Shown here: positions 4,179-15,338 of the stretch, in pieces
How positions within the stretch are numbered: position 1 is the first letter of the stretch
Layout of the letters: the number at the start of each line of letters is the position of its first letter
DNA from: a virus
Length of the DNA: 46,925 nt
Direction: 5' to 3' (one strand)
IMG/VR virus record: IMGVR_UViG_3300020222_000041
Location: 1-46,925 of that record
Notes under the pieces: model-generated
Told to the model about the DNA's origin: nothing
Databases searched by the model: none
Seen by the model: only the letters and a program-made list of their open reading frames with translations
Position numbers and translations under genes: made by a program

Positions 4179-5303
4179 TTATATTACGTATATTTGTCTT
4201 GGCATCGCGGTAAATTTCTTTTGTTTGTTTAGATTTTCCGCTAATAACGCTTCTCTTTCCATAACTTTTTCAGGTCTTAATCTTGTAAGTCGACCTTCCG
4301 CACCTACTAATTCCTCAATCAATTTTGTTTTTTCATCTTTACCTTCAGTCGCTAATGATTGATAGTCCATAGTTAATTCACTATCAGGTGTTTTTATATT
4401 ACCACTAAATTTACCTCTAACTTTAGACAAGGCTTCTTTAGCCGACGCAAAGAAATATCTACGAACCCAAATTTGTGCGGGGTTATTTAAATCCACCCAA
4501 GAAATTTTATCAAACGGAACATCTGACGGTAACTTAATAATATCAGGATTATCTTTAAGACACTTATCCCTATCTGAAGTGCCAACATCATAATACCAAT
4601 ACCATACCTGACCTTTCCTTAAAGACCCGCTACCAAAATCAAATTTACCCCCAGGAACATTCATTAAATGAATCGCCTTTTTACCTTCGGGTAATGCGGT
4701 AATTCGATAAGTTAAATCACCACCAATAATTCTTCTTTGTATGTTTATTTGTTGCATTCTAAGTAACATATCAAAAGCTGGCATCATAAAGTAACTTCCT
4801 CCCATATTCCCCATTTGGGCGAATCCTCCCTGACCTCCGATACCTCCACCACCTAAAGTACCAAAAGACCATGGGTCAAATAAAAGGTTGTTCATTGGGG
4901 TCGGGGTAAACCATAATAATTCATTAATTTCTCTACCCGCTGGTATTTCATATATTTGTTTACCTCTTTCGAGATTAAAAAAATCTTTTTTAAGTACATA
5001 ATCACCACCCGCTTGCAAACCAACAATTTTAGAATATGCGTAAGTATATCTTTCTTCATAATCTAAACTTTTTGTAATAAAAGCCCTTGATAATGACTGA
5101 GTATCAAGATTAAGATTATATAACGAAGTCCATTGAGATTCGATTAACCAATCTTGAACATATTGAGAATAATCCTCAATAGATAATTCTAAAATTGAAT
5201 CTAGTTGTTCATCTTCTAACTCAACCGACCTAAGAGGTGCTCCTAATGTATGTCTCAATTTAGTATATAGTTGAGTTCTTTCTGGTTCTGCGATAATTGA
5301 CAT
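4179..5303 (-). CDS. 13: Probable neck / head-completion protein (T4 gp13-like)
   Basis: This 374-aa protein is the likely neck component that joins the filled head to the tail. The N-terminal part is helical and acidic (SIIAEPERTQLYTKLRH, then EQLDSILELSIEDY), as in the helical head-completion and connector proteins of T4-like phages. The middle has an aromatic, Gly-rich segment with a glycine run (about residues 150-170: GTLGGGGIGGQGG), which may be a flexible loop. A conserved-looking segment, NPAQIWVRRYFFASAKEALSK, follows, and then a helical C-terminus. The gp13 assignment rests on this pattern and on the gp14-like and gp15-like genes nearby. Another neck or portal-adjacent protein is possible. 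A TATTTATAA motif lies 14 bases upstream of the ATG in the minus orientation, overlapping the end of the SOD-fusion gene. Confidence 0.55.
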   Translation of the reverse strand: MSIIAEPERTQLYTKLRHTLGAPLRSVELEDEQLDSILELSIEDYSQYVQDWLIESQWTSLYNLNLDTQSLSRAFITKSLDYEERYTYAYSKIVGLQAGGDYVLKKDFFNLERGKQIYEIPAGREINELLWFTPTPMNNLLFDPWSFGTLGGGGIGGQGGFAQMGNMGGSYFMMPAFDMLLRMQQINIQRRIIGGDLTYRITALPEGKKAIHLMNVPGGKFDFGSGSLRKGQVWYWYYDVGTSDRDKCLKDNPDIIKLPSDVPFDKISWVDLNNPAQIWVRRYFFASAKEALSKVRGKFSGNIKTPDSELTMDYQSLATEGKDEKTKLIEELVGAEGRLTRLRPEKVMEREALLAENLNKQKKFTAMPRQIYVI

Positions 5304-5324: not shown

Positions 5325-6863
5325 TCAACTTACTTCATAAATTAAATTCTCAATCGGGAAGGTATAGTTACCCTCAACTATTTTAGAATCTTTATTATTA
5401 AAAATTAATATACCTTTTTTAGGATTTGCGAATATAATCCAATCAGTATCATATTTCTTAACTTGTCCTGTATTAAAAACTGTTATATTCCCGTTATCGG
5501 TTTTTATATAACTAAAAGGTTTAATTTGTGAAGTTTTGGTTTCTCCATTGACGTTTACTTTACAATCAACACCCCCAATCATGTCTTCTTGACTACCTAA
5601 ACCACCAATCCTTTCGATATTTTCCTCACCAAATTTCTTTTCAAGAACTTCTACAGTATAATCTTCCCTCTTATCACCTAAGTCATGTGTCAATCCTAAA
5701 GTCGACATTAAATTTTTGAACGTTCCTGAATTTTGATTAAATATTCTTGATTTATAATCATTTAAAAATCTTACAAATTTTTTAGTTTCACTTATTTGGA
5801 CGTATGGTGGTTGACCTATAATTTTTATTTCAGGTTTATTCATTGATTTTAAAACTTTATTAACATCAGTTAATAAAATACAAAAACAATTATAATTGGT
5901 GTTAAGTTTATTAATCACTGACCTACCACTCCCTTCTAAATCATATATACCTGACATCTCACCTTCTTTGTACCCATTTTGACCATAATAATTATCGGGA
6001 AATACGTCTTTTAAAATTGAGTCAATGGCATACCGATAGGTTGTTTTAACTTTAGGATTAATGTTAAATACAAATCTGATAGCATCGTTCATCTCTTTAC
6101 TACATTTCTCAGAAACACCTTCTTTTATTATTTGTCTAAACCCTACCGATTCATTTAATTTTGATGTCGATTTAGAATTAAATAACTTATTTACAAACTC
6201 CCAATTTACAGATTTCCAAAAGTTTTTAATATATTCATCTCTTTTATTTCTATATTTTAAATAATAAGCGTGTTCCCATAAATCAAGACCTAAAATAGGA
6301 AATCCTCCGTCTTGTACGACATTCATTAATGGATTATCTTGGTTTGGTGTTGATATAATTTTTAAAGTGTTTTTATTATTTAGAACTAACCAAACCCATC
6401 CTGAACCAAATCTTTCTTTCGCTATTTCTTCAAATTTAGATTGGAATTTTTTATACGAACCAAAGTCTTTATTAATCCGATTCAAAACATCTCCAAAAGG
6501 TTTTTGAGTTTTAGGTGATAACATTTTCCAAAACAATGCGTGATTAAATGCACCACCAGCGTTATTTCTAATTGTTTTATCAAATTTACTGATAGTTTTA
6601 ATAATTTCCTCTAACTCTAAATCACCTCCTTTTTTCTTGGACAATGCTTTATTAAGTTTGTCTACATAACCCTTATAATGTTTATTATAATGGTATGACA
6701 TGGTTTCGGAATCAATAAATTGTTTTAGTGCGGAGTAAGAATAAGGTAACTTCTCAATACCTATTTTTTTCATTTCAAACAAAAAGAACTTTTCATTTTC
6801 CTTTTGTTCTTGTAAGATTAACGATTTATTTAAAATCTTAATCTTATTTTCAAATTTTTTCAT
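5325..6863 (-). CDS. Mn-type superoxide dismutase fused to a PD-(D/E)XK nuclease-like domain
   Basis: This 512-aa protein has two recognisable parts. Residues about 37-232 are a complete Fe/Mn superoxide dismutase, which converts superoxide to oxygen and peroxide. The four metal ligands are visible as H58 (YHYNKH), H108 (FNHALFW), D194 and H198 (DLWEHAYY). Gly at 104 and Gln at 175 (NQDNPL) sit where Mn-type or cambialistic enzymes carry them. Residues about 250-512 are unrelated to SOD and contain GGVD (D433) followed 13 residues later by QIK (446-448), the spacing of a PD-(D/E)XK nuclease core, with a Glu-containing helix before it. The same layout recurs in the protein at 9241-10686. The 36 residues before the SOD domain and the linker (IIKEG, 245-249) each contain (I/L)xE sites like those cut by T4 prohead protease. 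The nuclease reading is inference; the SOD is near certain. Confidence 0.85.
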   Translation of the reverse strand: MKKFENKIKILNKSLILQEQKENEKFFLFEMKKIGIEKLPYSYSALKQFIDSETMSYHYNKHYKGYVDKLNKALSKKKGGDLELEEIIKTISKFDKTIRNNAGGAFNHALFWKMLSPKTQKPFGDVLNRINKDFGSYKKFQSKFEEIAKERFGSGWVWLVLNNKNTLKIISTPNQDNPLMNVVQDGGFPILGLDLWEHAYYLKYRNKRDEYIKNFWKSVNWEFVNKLFNSKSTSKLNESVGFRQIIKEGVSEKCSKEMNDAIRFVFNINPKVKTTYRYAIDSILKDVFPDNYYGQNGYKEGEMSGIYDLEGSGRSVINKLNTNYNCFCILLTDVNKVLKSMNKPEIKIIGQPPYVQISETKKFVRFLNDYKSRIFNQNSGTFKNLMSTLGLTHDLGDKREDYTVEVLEKKFGEENIERIGGLGSQEDMIGGVDCKVNVNGETKTSQIKPFSYIKTDNGNITVFNTGQVKKYDTDWIIFANPKKGILIFNNKDSKIVEGNYTFPIENLIYEVS

Positions 6864-6884
6864 ATGGCTATTAATAATATATCT

Positions 6885-6891
6885 ATAAATA
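6885..6891 (-). promoter_or_regulatory. TATTTAT late-promoter-like motif (minus strand)
   Basis: On the minus strand TATTTATAGATATA begins about 28 bases before the ATG of the SOD-fusion gene (21-base gap after the heptamer). It suggests that the fusion gene is transcribed late with the structural genes. Confidence 0.45.
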
Positions 6892-6906: not shown

Positions 6907-8688
6907 TTATCTCAAACTGTTAATTCTATTCATCATTTCCTCAACAACATCGGCCTTATCCAAATTGTCCCCCATGACGGTTTCAAAAATATTTTTCTTA
7001 TTTGCTAAGATATCATAAATAATCCCCTCAATAGTATTCTCAAATATTGGATAATAAACGGATACATTTGATTTTTGACCGTATCTATAAGCCCTATCTT
7101 CGGCTTGTGAGTGGTCAGATGGAACAAATGATAAGTCGTTCATAATAACCGCCTCACCCGCAGTTAAGGTTAACCCAACTCCTGCGGCTTTTAAGTTCCC
7201 AACAAAAACTTTTATTTTTTCGTTCTCTTGGAATTGGTCGACCGCATATTGTCTTTGTGGTTTACTTGTACTACCGTCTAATCTAACCGCTTGTTTTCCA
7301 AAATGGTCGGCAATTTTATTTAATGTGTCGGTGAAATTTGTAAAAATTATTACCTTTTTATCTTGGTCTAAAATATTTTGAGCTAATTCTATAGTATTTT
7401 TTATTTTCTCTTCAGCAATTACTTGTCTGACTTTCATAAGTTTAGAAAATTGAACAGTTAGTGAATTAGATTCTTCTTTTTTATTATCATACCAATCATA
7501 ATATTCCCCCATTAAACCTTCGTAATGTTTTGATTTTAATCTTAAGTAAACAGGTGTAATGATTTTATCAGGTAAATCTAAGACCTCAGTCTTTAATCTC
7601 CTCAAAACTTGTCTTGAGGTTCTATCTCTTAATTCTTCTAAATTAGATGCTCCCGTAACGTTCCAAACTTTACGATTACCTGCTTTAAACTGATACCCTT
7701 GACAATATCTGATTGCGTAAGCCATCCAATTCTGAGCTACAGGACTTTCAATTAAATTTAATAAGTTAAAATAATTCATCGGTCTTGAGGTCATAGGTGT
7801 ACCAGTAAGTAACCATAATCTTTCCGCCCTTTTACTAAAACTATTCACTAATTTGGTTCGTTGTGCCTGACCATTTTGGATGTAATGGGCTTCGTCAATT
7901 ATAACCAAATCGGGATTAAATTGGTAAATCAAAGTGTTTTCTTTTTCTTTACCTGTATCATAAAAATTTCTAAGAATATCGTAATTAACAATTACAAAAT
8001 CATGTTCTAAAGAGAAATTTTTACTTTCCGCAATATAAACTGACCTATCAGTATAATTTGCAATCTCTCGTTGCCAATTTATTTTTAATGATGCGGGACA
8101 TACAATTAGTATTCGTTTAGCTTTAGTCTCTAAAGCGGCAACTATTGTTGCGGTTGTTTTACCTAAACCCATATCATCCGCTAAGATAAATCTTTTTGAA
8201 CCCGCAAGTTTTTCGACTGCAGGAATTTGGTGTGATAATAGAGGTCTATGAGAATATTTAGAATAATCAATCTCTACTTTTTCTACTTTATGAGTTTTCA
8301 TTATCGCTCCTTTTGGTAACCAAAAATCGTGCAAAGATTCCGTTTCAAATACCTTACCCCAAATATGATATGATTTTTCTTTTTCAGTTAATAATTTCTC
8401 AACCCAAACTTGTTCAGGTATTGTGGTATAAAGTTTTTCATCAGCAATTTTTTTCGCAAAATACGGGTCCAACTCAACCCATTTTTTTGCCACTTTGGGT
8501 TGTGTCTCATGAAAATTTATAATGTAATCCGATTGGGAACGGGTGGGGTAAAACTTTTTATTATTTTCTTTTTTATGTTTTAAATTTAATATAAAATTAT
8601 TACTCCCTAAGTAGTTACCAAGAATTTCTAAAGCCCTCATCTCAATTAATGATGAGGTGTTACCTGTTATTACTTTATCTATTGACAT
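6907..8688 (-). CDS. SNF2-family DNA helicase / translocase
   Basis: This 593-aa superfamily 2 ATPase of the SWI2/SNF2 type moves along duplex DNA and probably remodels replication or recombination intermediates. Motif I is DDMGLGKTT (171-179), motif II is DEAH (265-268), motif III is LLTGTP (293-298), and motif VI is QAEDRAYRYGQ near the C-terminus. The lobe-2 segment VIIFTNFTDTL and the LDGST motif are also typical. The ILADDMGLGKT form and the R-x-x-R-x-GQ motif VI point to SNF2 proteins such as SMARCAL1-like helicases rather than to T4 UvsW or Dda. Residues 1-145 form an extra N-terminal region of unknown role. It is the first gene of the minus-strand block and diverges from the gp14-like gene across a 40-base AT-only spacer. 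A degenerate TATTTTTATAGATATA lies upstream. Confidence 0.9.
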   Translation of the reverse strand: MSIDKVITGNTSSLIEMRALEILGNYLGSNNFILNLKHKKENNKKFYPTRSQSDYIINFHETQPKVAKKWVELDPYFAKKIADEKLYTTIPEQVWVEKLLTEKEKSYHIWGKVFETESLHDFWLPKGAIMKTHKVEKVEIDYSKYSHRPLLSHQIPAVEKLAGSKRFILADDMGLGKTTATIVAALETKAKRILIVCPASLKINWQREIANYTDRSVYIAESKNFSLEHDFVIVNYDILRNFYDTGKEKENTLIYQFNPDLVIIDEAHYIQNGQAQRTKLVNSFSKRAERLWLLTGTPMTSRPMNYFNLLNLIESPVAQNWMAYAIRYCQGYQFKAGNRKVWNVTGASNLEELRDRTSRQVLRRLKTEVLDLPDKIITPVYLRLKSKHYEGLMGEYYDWYDNKKEESNSLTVQFSKLMKVRQVIAEEKIKNTIELAQNILDQDKKVIIFTNFTDTLNKIADHFGKQAVRLDGSTSKPQRQYAVDQFQENEKIKVFVGNLKAAGVGLTLTAGEAVIMNDLSFVPSDHSQAEDRAYRYGQKSNVSVYYPIFENTIEGIIYDILANKKNIFETVMGDNLDKADVVEEMMNRINSLR

Positions 8689-8728: not shown

Positions 8729-9244
8729 ATGATGAATAATAAAGTCCCAATAACAAGAGTAGGAAAATTTTTTGGTTCCGATGATTATAACTTAGATTTA
8801 TCTATAGGTGAAGAATGGTTATATGGTGACATGAATTTTACTTTAGTATTATACAGAATTGATAGAATCAAAACTAAAACTGATGATGTATACGGAGAAT
8901 CTTTAAAAGACGGGATTAAATTTTTACCTCCTGTCGAATTTAAAGGTTATGTTCAAATAATGGCCCCTGAAAATAAAAATATTGGAACTTCTAAAGTTAA
9001 CCAATTTGAGCCAGGTAATATAAAGGTTTCAGTTTATACTAAACACTTGGAGGAACTTGGTGTAGACATAAGTCATGGTGATTACCTTGGTTATTATGAA
9101 ACTGAAGATAGAGTTAGATACTATGTTGTTAACAATGATGGTAGGGTAATTTCAGATAATAAACATAATTACGCGGGATACAAACCGTACTATAGAACTA
9201 TTATGGGTTCTGCAGTAACCGATAATGAATTTAGAGGATTATGA
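8729..9244 (+). CDS. 14: Probable neck protein (T4 gp14-like)
   Basis: This 171-aa protein has no signal peptide or membrane segment. The sequence alternates beta strands with charged loops. It ends in a pattern I associate with gp14-type head-closure proteins of T4-like phages: HGDYLGYYE, then RYYVVNNDGRV, then an aromatic stretch and a TIMGSAV-like close. It starts with two adjacent ATGs (8729, 8732), and its stop overlaps the next start as ATGA. It diverges from the SNF2 helicase gene and leads an operon with the nuclease-like and gp15-like genes, which fits a head-tail joining role. The gp14 identification is by pattern and position only; T4 gp14 is longer (256 aa). Confidence 0.45.
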   Translation: MMNNKVPITRVGKFFGSDDYNLDLSIGEEWLYGDMNFTLVLYRIDRIKTKTDDVYGESLKDGIKFLPPVEFKGYVQIMAPENKNIGTSKVNQFEPGNIKVSVYTKHLEELGVDISHGDYLGYYETEDRVRYYVVNNDGRVISDNKHNYAGYKPYYRTIMGSAVTDNEFRGL

Positions 9245-10686
9245 AAATAGTACTAACAGAAACTCAAATATTAAAATTACTTGAAAGAGTTAATTCAGGT
9301 AAGGTTACTTGTGATAAATGTGGTCATAACAATTCTGAAGAAGATTATATCGGTAAAAACGTAATGGTTTATTATAATTTACACAAACATACATTTTCTG
9401 TTACATATAAATCTAAAGTTATTTTACACGCCGATTACGTTAAACTTAAAGATGTTGAGTTTAGAGTTCGAGGAGGTGGTAAAGAAAAAGTTAGAAATGA
9501 AAAAAGAAAAAATGTTCATGCTTTTGTAATTGGTAAATTAGAAGATTATTGTGAGTTTCCTTGTAATAAAATACCCGATGAAAAATCGGATAAAGTAATT
9601 ACATACGACCCATACAAATACGATTCGTTTGTTTATAAAAATAGTAAAGAACCTGTATATAAAGCGAAAGAGGTCGATATGATTAATCATAAAAATAAAA
9701 TTTTTGTAATTAATGAAATCAAATCGAAAATAATTAAAGAATCTGAAGAAGAACAACCAACAAAATACACATATTTGACAATGGGTCTTTTTGAAAAGTT
9801 CAACACCAAAAGGTATTATTTTAATAAGATAGTTCCCGTTGTTGATGGCTCACCAATACCTAACAAAATTAAGATGTATGGTAGCGATGGTGATTTTGAA
9901 TTTAATAAAGAAGATATTACTATAAATCAAGATGAGGGGGTTGCCTTTATTAGTAAATCAACTATGGATAGTTTAAATCCTAATTTTAGTATGACTAATC
10001 ATTCTAAATTATCCTCTTCAATTGGGATTACTCCGTCAAACGTAAGACAGTCTTTAGAAATGGCCTTTCCTGATAATTGGAATAAAGGAGATAGTTTATA
10101 TACTCCAGGTTTAAGAGGTGTGTACACTATAGGTGAAAAAATGGGGAACTCTGAAGAGGATTGGTCAATTATGAATTATTTTGATACTAAAGATGAAATA
10201 CATAGTTTAATTTACTTAAAATATTTTGACGATATAAAATCAGGAAAAAATATTAACGATATCATCGAATGGATGTCCGATTTATTTAAAAATGAAGAAT
10301 ACACACAAATGTTAGTTGATAGACAATGGAGCTCCATAAAAAATGGTTTAGAATTGGAAAAAATGTCTGTTAATAACTTTTTAGACAAGGTTGGGTCTTC
10401 TAATATCATTTATTATCCTCATGGTTCTAAGATGGATAGGTGGTTAGGTGTTGACGTTACAATTGATGGTGTTAATTACCAAATTAAACCATTAAAGGGG
10501 TTTATTGTTAACGATGGTCTTTACAGTGTTAGTACTTATGGTATGAGAGATTACACAACAAAAAAATCTGTAGATAAAATTGCGTTCTCAAGTAAATCAA
10601 AAACATTAATATTTGATAACAAAGATTATACAGTGATTAGTAAAACAAGAGTTGTTTTTAAAGAAGAACCGTTAATAATAGAATAA
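9241..10686 (+). CDS. PD-(D/E)XK nuclease-like protein in the neck operon
   Basis: This 481-aa protein overlaps the preceding stop by 4 bases (ATGA) and is followed one base later by the gp15-like gene. The C-terminal region carries GVD (D405) followed by QIK (414-416), the D-x(n)-QxK arrangement of restriction-endonuclease-fold nucleases. It shares features with the C-terminal half of the SOD fusion: an FPDN segment followed by a Gly-rich YT/GVY stretch, then the nuclease-like core, then a hydrophobic LIF(N/D)NKD strand near the end. The N-terminus MKIVLTETQILKLLER is a short amphipathic helix ending in an LLE site, possibly a capsid-targeting peptide. A lone CDKCGH motif follows at residues 24-29. 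A head-completion nuclease comparable in role to T4 gp4 is one possibility. The function is inference. Confidence 0.6.
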   Translation: MKIVLTETQILKLLERVNSGKVTCDKCGHNNSEEDYIGKNVMVYYNLHKHTFSVTYKSKVILHADYVKLKDVEFRVRGGGKEKVRNEKRKNVHAFVIGKLEDYCEFPCNKIPDEKSDKVITYDPYKYDSFVYKNSKEPVYKAKEVDMINHKNKIFVINEIKSKIIKESEEEQPTKYTYLTMGLFEKFNTKRYYFNKIVPVVDGSPIPNKIKMYGSDGDFEFNKEDITINQDEGVAFISKSTMDSLNPNFSMTNHSKLSSSIGITPSNVRQSLEMAFPDNWNKGDSLYTPGLRGVYTIGEKMGNSEEDWSIMNYFDTKDEIHSLIYLKYFDDIKSGKNINDIIEWMSDLFKNEEYTQMLVDRQWSSIKNGLELEKMSVNNFLDKVGSSNIIYYPHGSKMDRWLGVDVTIDGVNYQIKPLKGFIVNDGLYSVSTYGMRDYTTKKSVDKIAFSSKSKTLIFDNKDYTVISKTRVVFKEEPLIIE

Positions 10687-12008: not shown

Positions 12009-15000
12009 ATGGCATCTAACAACAAAGTATTCGTATCTCCTGGAGTGTATACATCTGAGGTTGATTTAAGTTTCGTAGCCCAAAGTGTTGGGGTTACAAC
12101 GTTAGGTATCGTTGGTGAGACTTTAAAAGGTCCAGCATTCGAACCAATCTTTATTAGAAACTTTGATGAATTCACTACATTTTTTGGAGGAGTATCCCCT
12201 GAAAAATTCATTAATACACAAATACCTAAATATGAGGGGGCTTATATTGCAAAATCATATTTACAACAATCTAACCAATTGTTTGTAACGAGAGTTTTAG
12301 GTTTATCAGGTTATGATGCGGGTCCTTCATGGACTATATCAACAAAGGCAAATGTTGACCCATCAACTGTAGGGTTTTATTGTGAAGACCCTGTTATTGA
12401 GAATTGTGAACCTAAATGTAATGATTACTTAACAATTGACTACTCAATTGATTTCACAGGTTGTACTAATAGTGTGGACAGTATTAAATTTATCAACCCA
12501 TCACAAATACCTGATGAAATTGCTGAAAAGATGAATTTACCCTATGAAAAATTTGATGGTAGTACGTCAACAATATATGGTGATATGACAAGTCAAATTA
12601 TTGATATCTTAACTGATAATACATTAGAAACATCTTCAATATATTATTACGGAGCGATTTCAGGTGAAACTTATGATACATTATCACCAGTGTTTACCGC
12701 AGAAACTAATGTTTTTGGTGTTGACAATGTTAGTTCTTCATTAATAAATTTTTCAGCGTCAGTTAACGACCCTTGGTATTATGCAACTTTTGATAATATA
12801 GGTAATGCACTTTATAGTGGTTATTCGTTTTGGAGTATTGTTACTGATTTGGCATTAATTCCTGTAACGACCACTACAACATTAACACCTTCAACAACTA
12901 CTACAACTACTAACCCTTGTGTTACACCAATCCCAACATCAACTACTACAACAACAACTGCTAAACCTGTTAATTGTTATACAGGTAAGTTAATTGGTAG
13001 ATTGTATATCTATTCAGGTACTGCATACACTGACTATGATGATTTAGTAATTGCAACATTACGTTCTAGAGGTTTAGCAACTTATGGCACTGATGACGGC
13101 GCGGTATATGAAGTTTCAGGGTTAACAGATGTTGAAATGGTTTGTGGTAATGAATATTCAGGAGTTACTAAAAACCCTTACTCAACTTTCGGTTTAAATG
13201 TTACAAATAAAAATGGTGAGAAATTCTTCTTTGAAACATCGTTTTCTAATTCAGATACTAAATACTTAACTAAAGTATTTGGTTCGTCTAACTTCGCAAA
13301 ACCTAAAGATGTAGTACCGTTATTTGTTGAGGAAAGATTCCAAGCATTATTAAACTACGCGTGGAGAAAAGGTTATATTAGAGGATTAAATTGTGAATTA
13401 ACTGCATTACCAAATGCTAGACAAGGAAATGACCCAACATCAATCGCATGGTATTTAGAAAAATACCAATCACCGATGTCCCCTTGGGTTGTGTCTGAAT
13501 TAAGAGGTAACAAAGTTTATAAATTATTTAAATTCACAACAATTGCTGATGGTAACGAGGCTAACATAGAAGTTAAAATATCAATCGCAAATATTTCATT
13601 CAGTAATGGAACATTTGATGTGATTGTTAGAGATTTCTTTGACTCAGATGCTGCCCCTTCAGTTATCGAAAAGTTTACTAACTGTTCAATGGACCCAGGC
13701 CAAAATAACTTTATTGCTAAAAAAATAGGAACTGTTGACGGTGAGTACGCGTTAAATTCTAAATATATTATGGTTGAGATAAACGAGGACGCTCCTGTAG
13801 ACGCTTTACCTTGTGGATTTGAGGGATACCAATTTAGAGAATACGCGGGTGTAAGACCTCCATTCCCTATCTATAAAACTAAATATGACTTCCCTGGTGA
13901 AGTTGTATATAACCCACCTTTTGGTTTGTCTTCAGGAGCTGATGATATCGTAAGAAGTGCGGGTGATAACATTAGAAGAACATACTTAGGTATCTCAGAT
14001 ACAGTAGGATTTGACGTTGATTTTTATTCATATAAAGGTAAACAACTACCATTAGATATTTGTACTGATGTAACAGGTGATGATTGGTTCTATAAATCGA
14101 GAGGTTTCCACATGGACATAAATGCTTCAGGTATAACAATTGGTAATGGTTTCATTACAAGTGGTACACCAGCATTCTTTGTAGGTTCTGCACCATTTAC
14201 AACAGACCCTGAAGATTCTTCTAACCCATATTTTAGATTGTTTGCACGTAAATTTAGTTTACTATGTTCAGGTGGTTTTGACGGATGGGACATTTATAGA
14301 GAGAGTAGAACTAATGGAGATAAATTTGCATTAGGACAACCAGGTTATAGAAAAGGGTCATGTCCATCATTTAAATACCCAAGTGCTACAGGTTGGGGTG
14401 CGTTTAAACAAATTACTGTTGGTGACAACACACAAGATTGGGCGAACACCGACTATTACGCATACTTATTAGGTCAAAGGTCTTTTGCAAATCCTGAAGC
14501 GGTTAATATTAACGTATTTGTTACACCTGGTATTGATTACGTCAATCACTCAAACTTAGTTGAAGACGCTATAGATATGGTCGAGAACGATAGAGCGGAT
14601 TCAGTCTATATTTGTACAACCCCTGACTACAATATGTTTGTACCATCTACGGGTGACCAATTAGACTTTATTTACCCACAAGAAGCGGTAGATAATCTTG
14701 AGGAGGCAGGTTTAGACTCTAACTATACCGCAACATATTACCCTTGGGTACTTACAAGAGATACCGTTAATAACACACAAATTTACATCCCACCAACTGC
14801 GGAAGTAACGAGGAACTTAGCGTTAACGGATAACATCGCATTCCCTTGGTTCGCCGCGGCGGGTTACACAAGAGGTATTGTAAACGCTATCAAAGCGAGA
14901 AAGAAACTTACTCAAGAAGATAGAGATGTATTATATAAAGGAAGAATCAACCCAATTGCAACTTTCTCTGACGTAGGTACTGTAATTTGGGGTAATAAAA

Positions 15001-15338
15001 CTTTACAAATTAGAGAATCTGCACTTGACAGAATCAATGTTAGAAGATTATTATTACAAGCTCGTAAATTAATATCTGCGGTTTCTGTAAGATTATTGTT
15101 TGAACAAAACGATGAGAAAGTAAGACAAGATTTCTTAGATGCGGTTAACCCTATATTAGATGCAATCAGAAGAGACCGAGGTTTATACGATTTCCGTGTA
15201 AATGTTTCTTCAGACCCTGCAGATTTAGATAGAAACCAATTAACAGGTAAGATTTATATCAAACCTACTAAATCGTTAGAATTCATAGACATTACATTCT
15301 ACATTACTCCAACAGGGGCATCGTTTGATAATATCTAA
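12009..15338 (+). CDS. 18: Contractile tail sheath protein (T4 gp18-like), enlarged
   Basis: The sheath forms the contractile outer tube. The N-terminus is diagnostic: VFVSPGVYTSEVDLS, then a TLGIVGETLKGPAFEP segment and a DEFTTFFGG segment. The C-terminal third carries the conserved sheath core, including PWFAAAGYTRG, the tube-interacting IRESALDRINVRRLL and a final beta domain. At 1109 aa it is far longer than T4 gp18 (659 aa). The extra length lies mainly between residues about 115 and 640 and includes a Cys-containing stretch and two threonine runs (residues 287-318) flanking a short Pro/Cys segment. These look like flexible linkers bounding an inserted, outward-facing domain. The gene is preceded by a late-promoter motif and followed by an imperfect hairpin before the HAD gene. 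Confidence 0.95.
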   Translation: MASNNKVFVSPGVYTSEVDLSFVAQSVGVTTLGIVGETLKGPAFEPIFIRNFDEFTTFFGGVSPEKFINTQIPKYEGAYIAKSYLQQSNQLFVTRVLGLSGYDAGPSWTISTKANVDPSTVGFYCEDPVIENCEPKCNDYLTIDYSIDFTGCTNSVDSIKFINPSQIPDEIAEKMNLPYEKFDGSTSTIYGDMTSQIIDILTDNTLETSSIYYYGAISGETYDTLSPVFTAETNVFGVDNVSSSLINFSASVNDPWYYATFDNIGNALYSGYSFWSIVTDLALIPVTTTTTLTPSTTTTTTNPCVTPIPTSTTTTTTAKPVNCYTGKLIGRLYIYSGTAYTDYDDLVIATLRSRGLATYGTDDGAVYEVSGLTDVEMVCGNEYSGVTKNPYSTFGLNVTNKNGEKFFFETSFSNSDTKYLTKVFGSSNFAKPKDVVPLFVEERFQALLNYAWRKGYIRGLNCELTALPNARQGNDPTSIAWYLEKYQSPMSPWVVSELRGNKVYKLFKFTTIADGNEANIEVKISIANISFSNGTFDVIVRDFFDSDAAPSVIEKFTNCSMDPGQNNFIAKKIGTVDGEYALNSKYIMVEINEDAPVDALPCGFEGYQFREYAGVRPPFPIYKTKYDFPGEVVYNPPFGLSSGADDIVRSAGDNIRRTYLGISDTVGFDVDFYSYKGKQLPLDICTDVTGDDWFYKSRGFHMDINASGITIGNGFITSGTPAFFVGSAPFTTDPEDSSNPYFRLFARKFSLLCSGGFDGWDIYRESRTNGDKFALGQPGYRKGSCPSFKYPSATGWGAFKQITVGDNTQDWANTDYYAYLLGQRSFANPEAVNINVFVTPGIDYVNHSNLVEDAIDMVENDRADSVYICTTPDYNMFVPSTGDQLDFIYPQEAVDNLEEAGLDSNYTATYYPWVLTRDTVNNTQIYIPPTAEVTRNLALTDNIAFPWFAAAGYTRGIVNAIKARKKLTQEDRDVLYKGRINPIATFSDVGTVIWGNKTLQIRESALDRINVRRLLLQARKLISAVSVRLLFEQNDEKVRQDFLDAVNPILDAIRRDRGLYDFRVNVSSDPADLDRNQLTGKIYIKPTKSLEFIDITFYITPTGASFDNI

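Follow-up and report, generated by a model that had tools for sequence, protein, structure and literature searches.

A single gene of an uncultured phage (positions 5325..6863, minus strand, of the 46,925-nt genome fragment analyzed here, hereafter the window) encodes a 512-aa protein in which a complete Mn-type superoxide dismutase (SOD) is joined to a domain that is probably PD-(D/E)XK nuclease-like. The reading we favor, and hold to be probable, is that of a late-expressed head polyprotein similar to the internal proteins of phage T4, which would be targeted to the capsid, cut by the prohead protease into an SOD and a nuclease-like protein, and probably ejected. The family is known here from sequences of large, T4-like, uncultured environmental phages.

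A fused SOD widespread in phage contigs

The 512-aa open reading frame (ORF) was confirmed, and full-length relatives with 52-100% identity are encoded in about 80 IMG/VR contigs, including two 322-kb records (labeled G001 and G002). Because so many contigs encode the full-length protein, there is no assembly junction or stop between the SOD and C-terminal halves, a concern raised in an earlier note on this DNA, and an assembly chimera is ruled out. A scan of 84,980 species genomes did not find the full-length fusion in cellular genomes, where matches are essentially confined to the SOD part, mostly at 35-49% identity; transfer of the whole fusion from a cellular genome was rejected on these grounds. 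Two kinds of phage-labeled SOD were set aside as well, namely that of MW462191 ('Bacteriophage sp.'), whose gene neighborhood looks bacterial, and those in 'Staphylococcus/Listeria phage' records, which by appearance are host DNA. The fusion is already present in UniProt/BFVD as A0A6J5L953 (uncultured Caudovirales phage, 501 aa), whose model fits the C-terminal domain at TM 0.93 but whose annotation is superoxide dismutase only. In the literature searched, no paper describing an SOD polyprotein of this kind was found.

The SOD domain spans residues 36-226 (6186..6758, minus strand), which match Sod_Fe_N (3.9e-23) and Sod_Fe_C (2.4e-40) in Pfam (PF00081/PF02777) and 160 SOD sequences in the PDB (best 6.6e-59), together with PDB fold matches. 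Its metal ligands H58, H108, D194 and H198 do not vary among 68 relatives, nor do G104 and Q175, in agreement with the four ligands and the Mn-type Gly/Gln arrangement described in the earlier note. The N-terminal half is thus, by its sequence, a complete Mn-type SOD and is expected to have dismutase activity.

The C-terminal half, residues 249-512 (5328..6119, minus strand), is predicted by AlphaFold as one domain (pLDDT 90.7, pTM 0.84). Sequence searches of the PDB and Pfam gave no convincing match for these residues. The fold search suggested in the earlier note was run with Foldseek, and its top PDB matches are the homing nuclease I-Ssp6803I (2ost; probability 1.00 and the best E-value, 3.2e-3) and archaeal Hjc resolvases; the best four PDB matches have probabilities of 0.95-1.00, but modest E-values and a target TM of only 0.35-0.47. 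The candidate active site comprises E400, D427, D433 and Q446-x-K448, of which E400, D433, Q446 and K448 are invariant in relatives; relative to the E...D...(D/E)xK signature, E400, D433 and K448 are kept, but Q446 takes the usual D/E position in all. Hence the domain, as the earlier note had proposed from a similar core, is probably PD-(D/E)XK nuclease-like rather than of an unrelated fold, with the low TM-scores making this a modest match. In profile alignment (hhalign, 98.3%, E 2.6e-14), its family aligns with a group formed by loci L294 and L300, a paralog in the head gene cluster and a second member in the window (9241..10686, plus strand), which has the tag MKIVLTE/T (here and below, a slash after Glu marks the putative cut), an L5_gp82 domain (PF25735) and an IIKE/S linker.

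Conserved protease-type sites around the SOD

In T4, the prohead protease gp21 cuts C-terminal to L/I-X-E, and N-terminal CTS peptides of 10 residues bring cargo into the head (PMC9026906). The window protein begins with a capsid-targeting-like peptide, residues 1-30 (6774..6863, minus strand), which has a predicted helix at 2-27 and ends in LFE/M, while the linker between its two domains holds a first site, LNE/S, at residues 236-238 (6150..6158, minus strand), and a second, IKE/G, at residues 246-248 (6120..6128, minus strand). In the 34 sequences left after dropping those more than 90% identical, E30 and E238 are conserved at 100% and E248 at 97%, and L/I/V/M occupies position -2 of these residues at 100%, 100% and 97%, respectively. 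Glu is kept at 90% or more in nine alignment columns of this set, and in four of these position -2 is hydrophobic. Of the four, E197 belongs to the fixed SOD motif LWE, whereas at E30, E238 and E248 the middle residue of the triplet varies and the positions lie outside the folded domains. Indeed, the N-terminus and the inter-domain linker are the least conserved stretches of the protein, with a mean major-residue frequency of 0.61 and 0.57 versus 0.83 in the SOD, and AlphaFold confidence is low at 19-43 and 234-248 (pLDDT below 50 in the latter), plus a short stretch at 80-82. Most relatives have another, earlier site at residue 13, which the window copy has lost (ILNK).

The same sites recur across a modular family. 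Of the complete SOD ORFs, 107 are distinct; 85 of them share the C-terminal family with the window protein, and the remainder have a short tail, an N-terminal HEWVH metallopeptidase-like domain or different downstream domains; in one locus (L294), the nuclease-like family is present in two copies with LxE between them. [LIVM]xE lies exactly 6 residues ahead of the SOD profile start in 105 of the 107, and the two exceptions are ORFs called from a Met at residue 31. A downstream site is found within 40 residues after the SOD in all 103 of the 103 ORFs whose tail is at least 25 aa. Thus, the sites beside the SOD are retained although the fused cargo varies. The HEWVH domain, which gives a weak SprT-like match (E 0.034), precedes the SOD in L322, L325, L328, L339, L343 and L369, and the junction, [LIMV][FY]E, is conserved. 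L339 and L363 have a differing C-terminal cargo of 300 aa (FEALISGLLNG...ISCK in L339), common to several SOD polyproteins.

A gp21-family protease (PF03420) is encoded in both 322-kb relatives (1.5e-25 and 7.9e-25) and in a further related record, G008; a protease gene was not recognized in the 46,925-nt window, itself a genome fragment. In addition, the capsid protein of related genomes has ...LINE/ATSDG ahead of a T4-like mature-like start. Taken together, conservation and position indicate that E30, E238 and E248 are probable prohead-protease sites at which the two halves would be separated. Because such invariant (L/I)xE sites surround the SOD, the halves are likely cut apart by the prohead protease, and the fusion enzyme with two activities envisaged in the earlier note gives way to two putative products.

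Gene neighborhood and late-promoter motif

The gene lies between two syntenic neighbors on the same strand: downstream, a neck or head-tail adaptor (Ad2)-like gene (4179..5303; PHROG 211) and, upstream, an SNF2/UvsW-type helicase identified by domain matches (6907..8688). The earlier placement among neck genes therefore holds for one immediate neighbor and not for the other. The late-type promoter reported previously also needs revision, since the T4 late promoter TATAAATA is about as frequent in the window as expected by chance (14 versus 13.0) and was dropped in favor of TATTTATA/ATTTATA; it is the coding-strand form TATTTATA (6884..6891, minus strand), late-promoter-like and about 21 nt before the ATG, that is conserved, with copies in 49 of the 82 distinct upstream regions taken from relatives. 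In G001, ATTTATA lies ahead of 56 of the 321 ORFs versus 8.7 expected, and in G002 ahead of 60 versus 7.3 expected, and the G001 genes with this motif include those for the scaffold, prohead protease, neck and SOD. Elsewhere in the window, the tail sheath (12009..15338, plus strand; 1109 aa) contains Thr/Pro-rich inserts (TTTTTLTPSTTTTTTNP).

Short N-terminal tags are found well beyond the SOD genes. Of 634 ORF starts, 38 have an MKIIITE-like tag, versus 4 of 3104 decoys at internal Met residues; the tag is attached to 25 unrelated protein bodies, and a paralog of the C-terminal family, tagged MKITISE/G, sits between the protease and scaffold genes. Dozens of unrelated proteins in G001 and G002 (loci L085-L118) begin with MK(I/L)(I/L)ITE(S/N) or longer LTESDL...INE tags. 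These tags are probably a capsid-targeting signal; a literature search on the tag letters found nothing relevant. Tag and late motif are significantly associated in G001 (p=1.7e-5) and not in G002 (p=0.23). One may speculate, quite tentatively, that a general packaging code exists, in which a late promoter combined with an N-terminal tag, either of MKIIITE type or a longer helix, directs dozens of enzymes to the head, several enzymes enter on a single tag as a polyprotein and are then freed by the prohead protease, and SOD is one ejected effector, perhaps directed against host superoxide at the start of infection.

Comparison with known systems

A close parallel is offered by the T4 internal head proteins (IPI, IPII, IPIII and Alt), which, like the window protein, begin with a short peptide whose last residues are (L/I)xE and belong to a phage type with a gp21-type protease and varied cargo. 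The window protein itself has the N-terminal propeptide of T4-type CTS cargo, and the protease is present in its related records G001, G002 and G008. It differs in that SOD and nuclease-like cargo share a single chain and the sites separate functional domains, whereas the T4 and SPN3US cuts in the cited literature remove terminal propeptides. The virion carriage suggested in the earlier note appears likely.

The SOD polyproteins also resemble phage polyvalent proteins, in which unrelated enzymatic domains share one chain near late genes (PMC5512222), and some SOD relatives add a metallopeptidase-like domain, as polyvalent-type proteins do. In domain content and context, the window protein combines several unrelated predicted activities in one chain with a late/virion gene setting. 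However, its domains are separated by prohead-protease-type sites, unlike those of polyvalent proteins. Pfam, PHROG and NCBIfam searches recognized no described polyvalent domain in it, and SOD is not mentioned in the main text of the polyvalent-protein paper (PMC5512222). Among eukaryotic viruses, the Cu,Zn-SOD of Megavirus chilensis appears in a list of enzymes from the particles of large viruses (PMC9405923). That enzyme belongs to an SOD family unrelated to the phage SOD. To our knowledge, it has no fusion comparable to the SOD-nuclease-like chain.

Among isolates, Pseudomonas phage PA5oct encodes a protein of the same Fe/Mn SOD family (EST35_0261) that starts MNDSIKKYISIAE/A and thus has an (L/I)xE-type site near its N-terminus, with IAE/A at residue 13, and its genome carries a gp21-type protease. 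Unlike the window protein, this SOD stands alone (182 aa, 28.5% identical) without a nuclease-like domain. In GenBank it is flagged ESI-MS/MS though named hypothetical (L377:22979-23527, corresponding to 172979..173527 of the PA5oct record). The MS list gives weak support because it includes likely non-structural enzymes (ribonucleotide reductase, ligase) and motif enrichment is mild: among the MS-detected proteins, plain [LI]xE close to the N-terminus shows no enrichment (19/93 versus 59/300), and only [LIVA]xE[ASG], one of several patterns tried, is enriched (9/93 versus 7/300, p=0.004). PA5oct is therefore a lead for a packaged SOD, not proof.

A proposed pathway and its alternatives

In the pathway that we favor, residues 1-30 would act as a capsid-targeting peptide bringing the polyprotein into the prohead core, where a gp21-type (S77) prohead protease would cut after E30 and after E238 and/or E248. 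Two products would result inside the head, namely a mature SOD (about residues 31-238) and, detached from it, a PD-(D/E)XK-like protein (about 249-512), both probably ejected with the DNA by analogy with the T4 internal proteins and Alt. The ejected SOD may then remove superoxide, either near the entering genome or within the cell just infected, while the nuclease-like protein would have DNA as its target.

One may argue that nothing is packaged, and that SOD made late protects the dying host cell as an intracellular auxiliary enzyme, with the C-terminal domain as a permanently fused DNA-processing or localization domain. A phage-encoded Fe/Mn SOD has indeed been interpreted as an auxiliary metabolic gene (PMC12542629), and the intact active-site residues and the synteny with a helicase fit such a role, but the (L/I)xE triplets that stay invariant while the linkers around them vary, their fixed spacing in nearly all SOD ORFs, the interchangeable cargo and the tagged paralog in the head-gene cluster would all be left unexplained, making this explanation unlikely. 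Alternatively, the protein might be packaged and stay intact, its conserved Glu residues being structural or partner-binding, so that one enzyme guards and processes packaged or injected DNA, as in the model of the earlier note. Both domains are kept together in about 80 contigs, and SOD packaging in virions is reported for giant viruses (PMC9405923); this is nevertheless quite improbable in view of a linker that is predicted to be disordered and holds two protease-consensus sites, and of SODs that also occur alone or with other partners. Least probable, in our judgment, is processing of a polyvalent-type protein by a zincin-like metallopeptidase, its own or one fused to it, instead of the prohead protease. 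Zincin-like peptidases are thought to process polyvalent proteins (PMC5512222), and several relatives have the HEWVH domain N-terminal to the SOD, with its weak SprT-like match, but the window protein and most relatives lack this domain and still keep the sites, which moreover fit the gp21 motif.

Implications

If the head-polyprotein reading is true, an antioxidant enzyme would be delivered from a phage head, and a head protease would cut a cargo polyprotein between two functional domains, each being the first phage case known to us. Moreover, the N-terminal tag would be a readable sequence signal from which one could predict the unknown proteins that large environmental phages carry in the particle.
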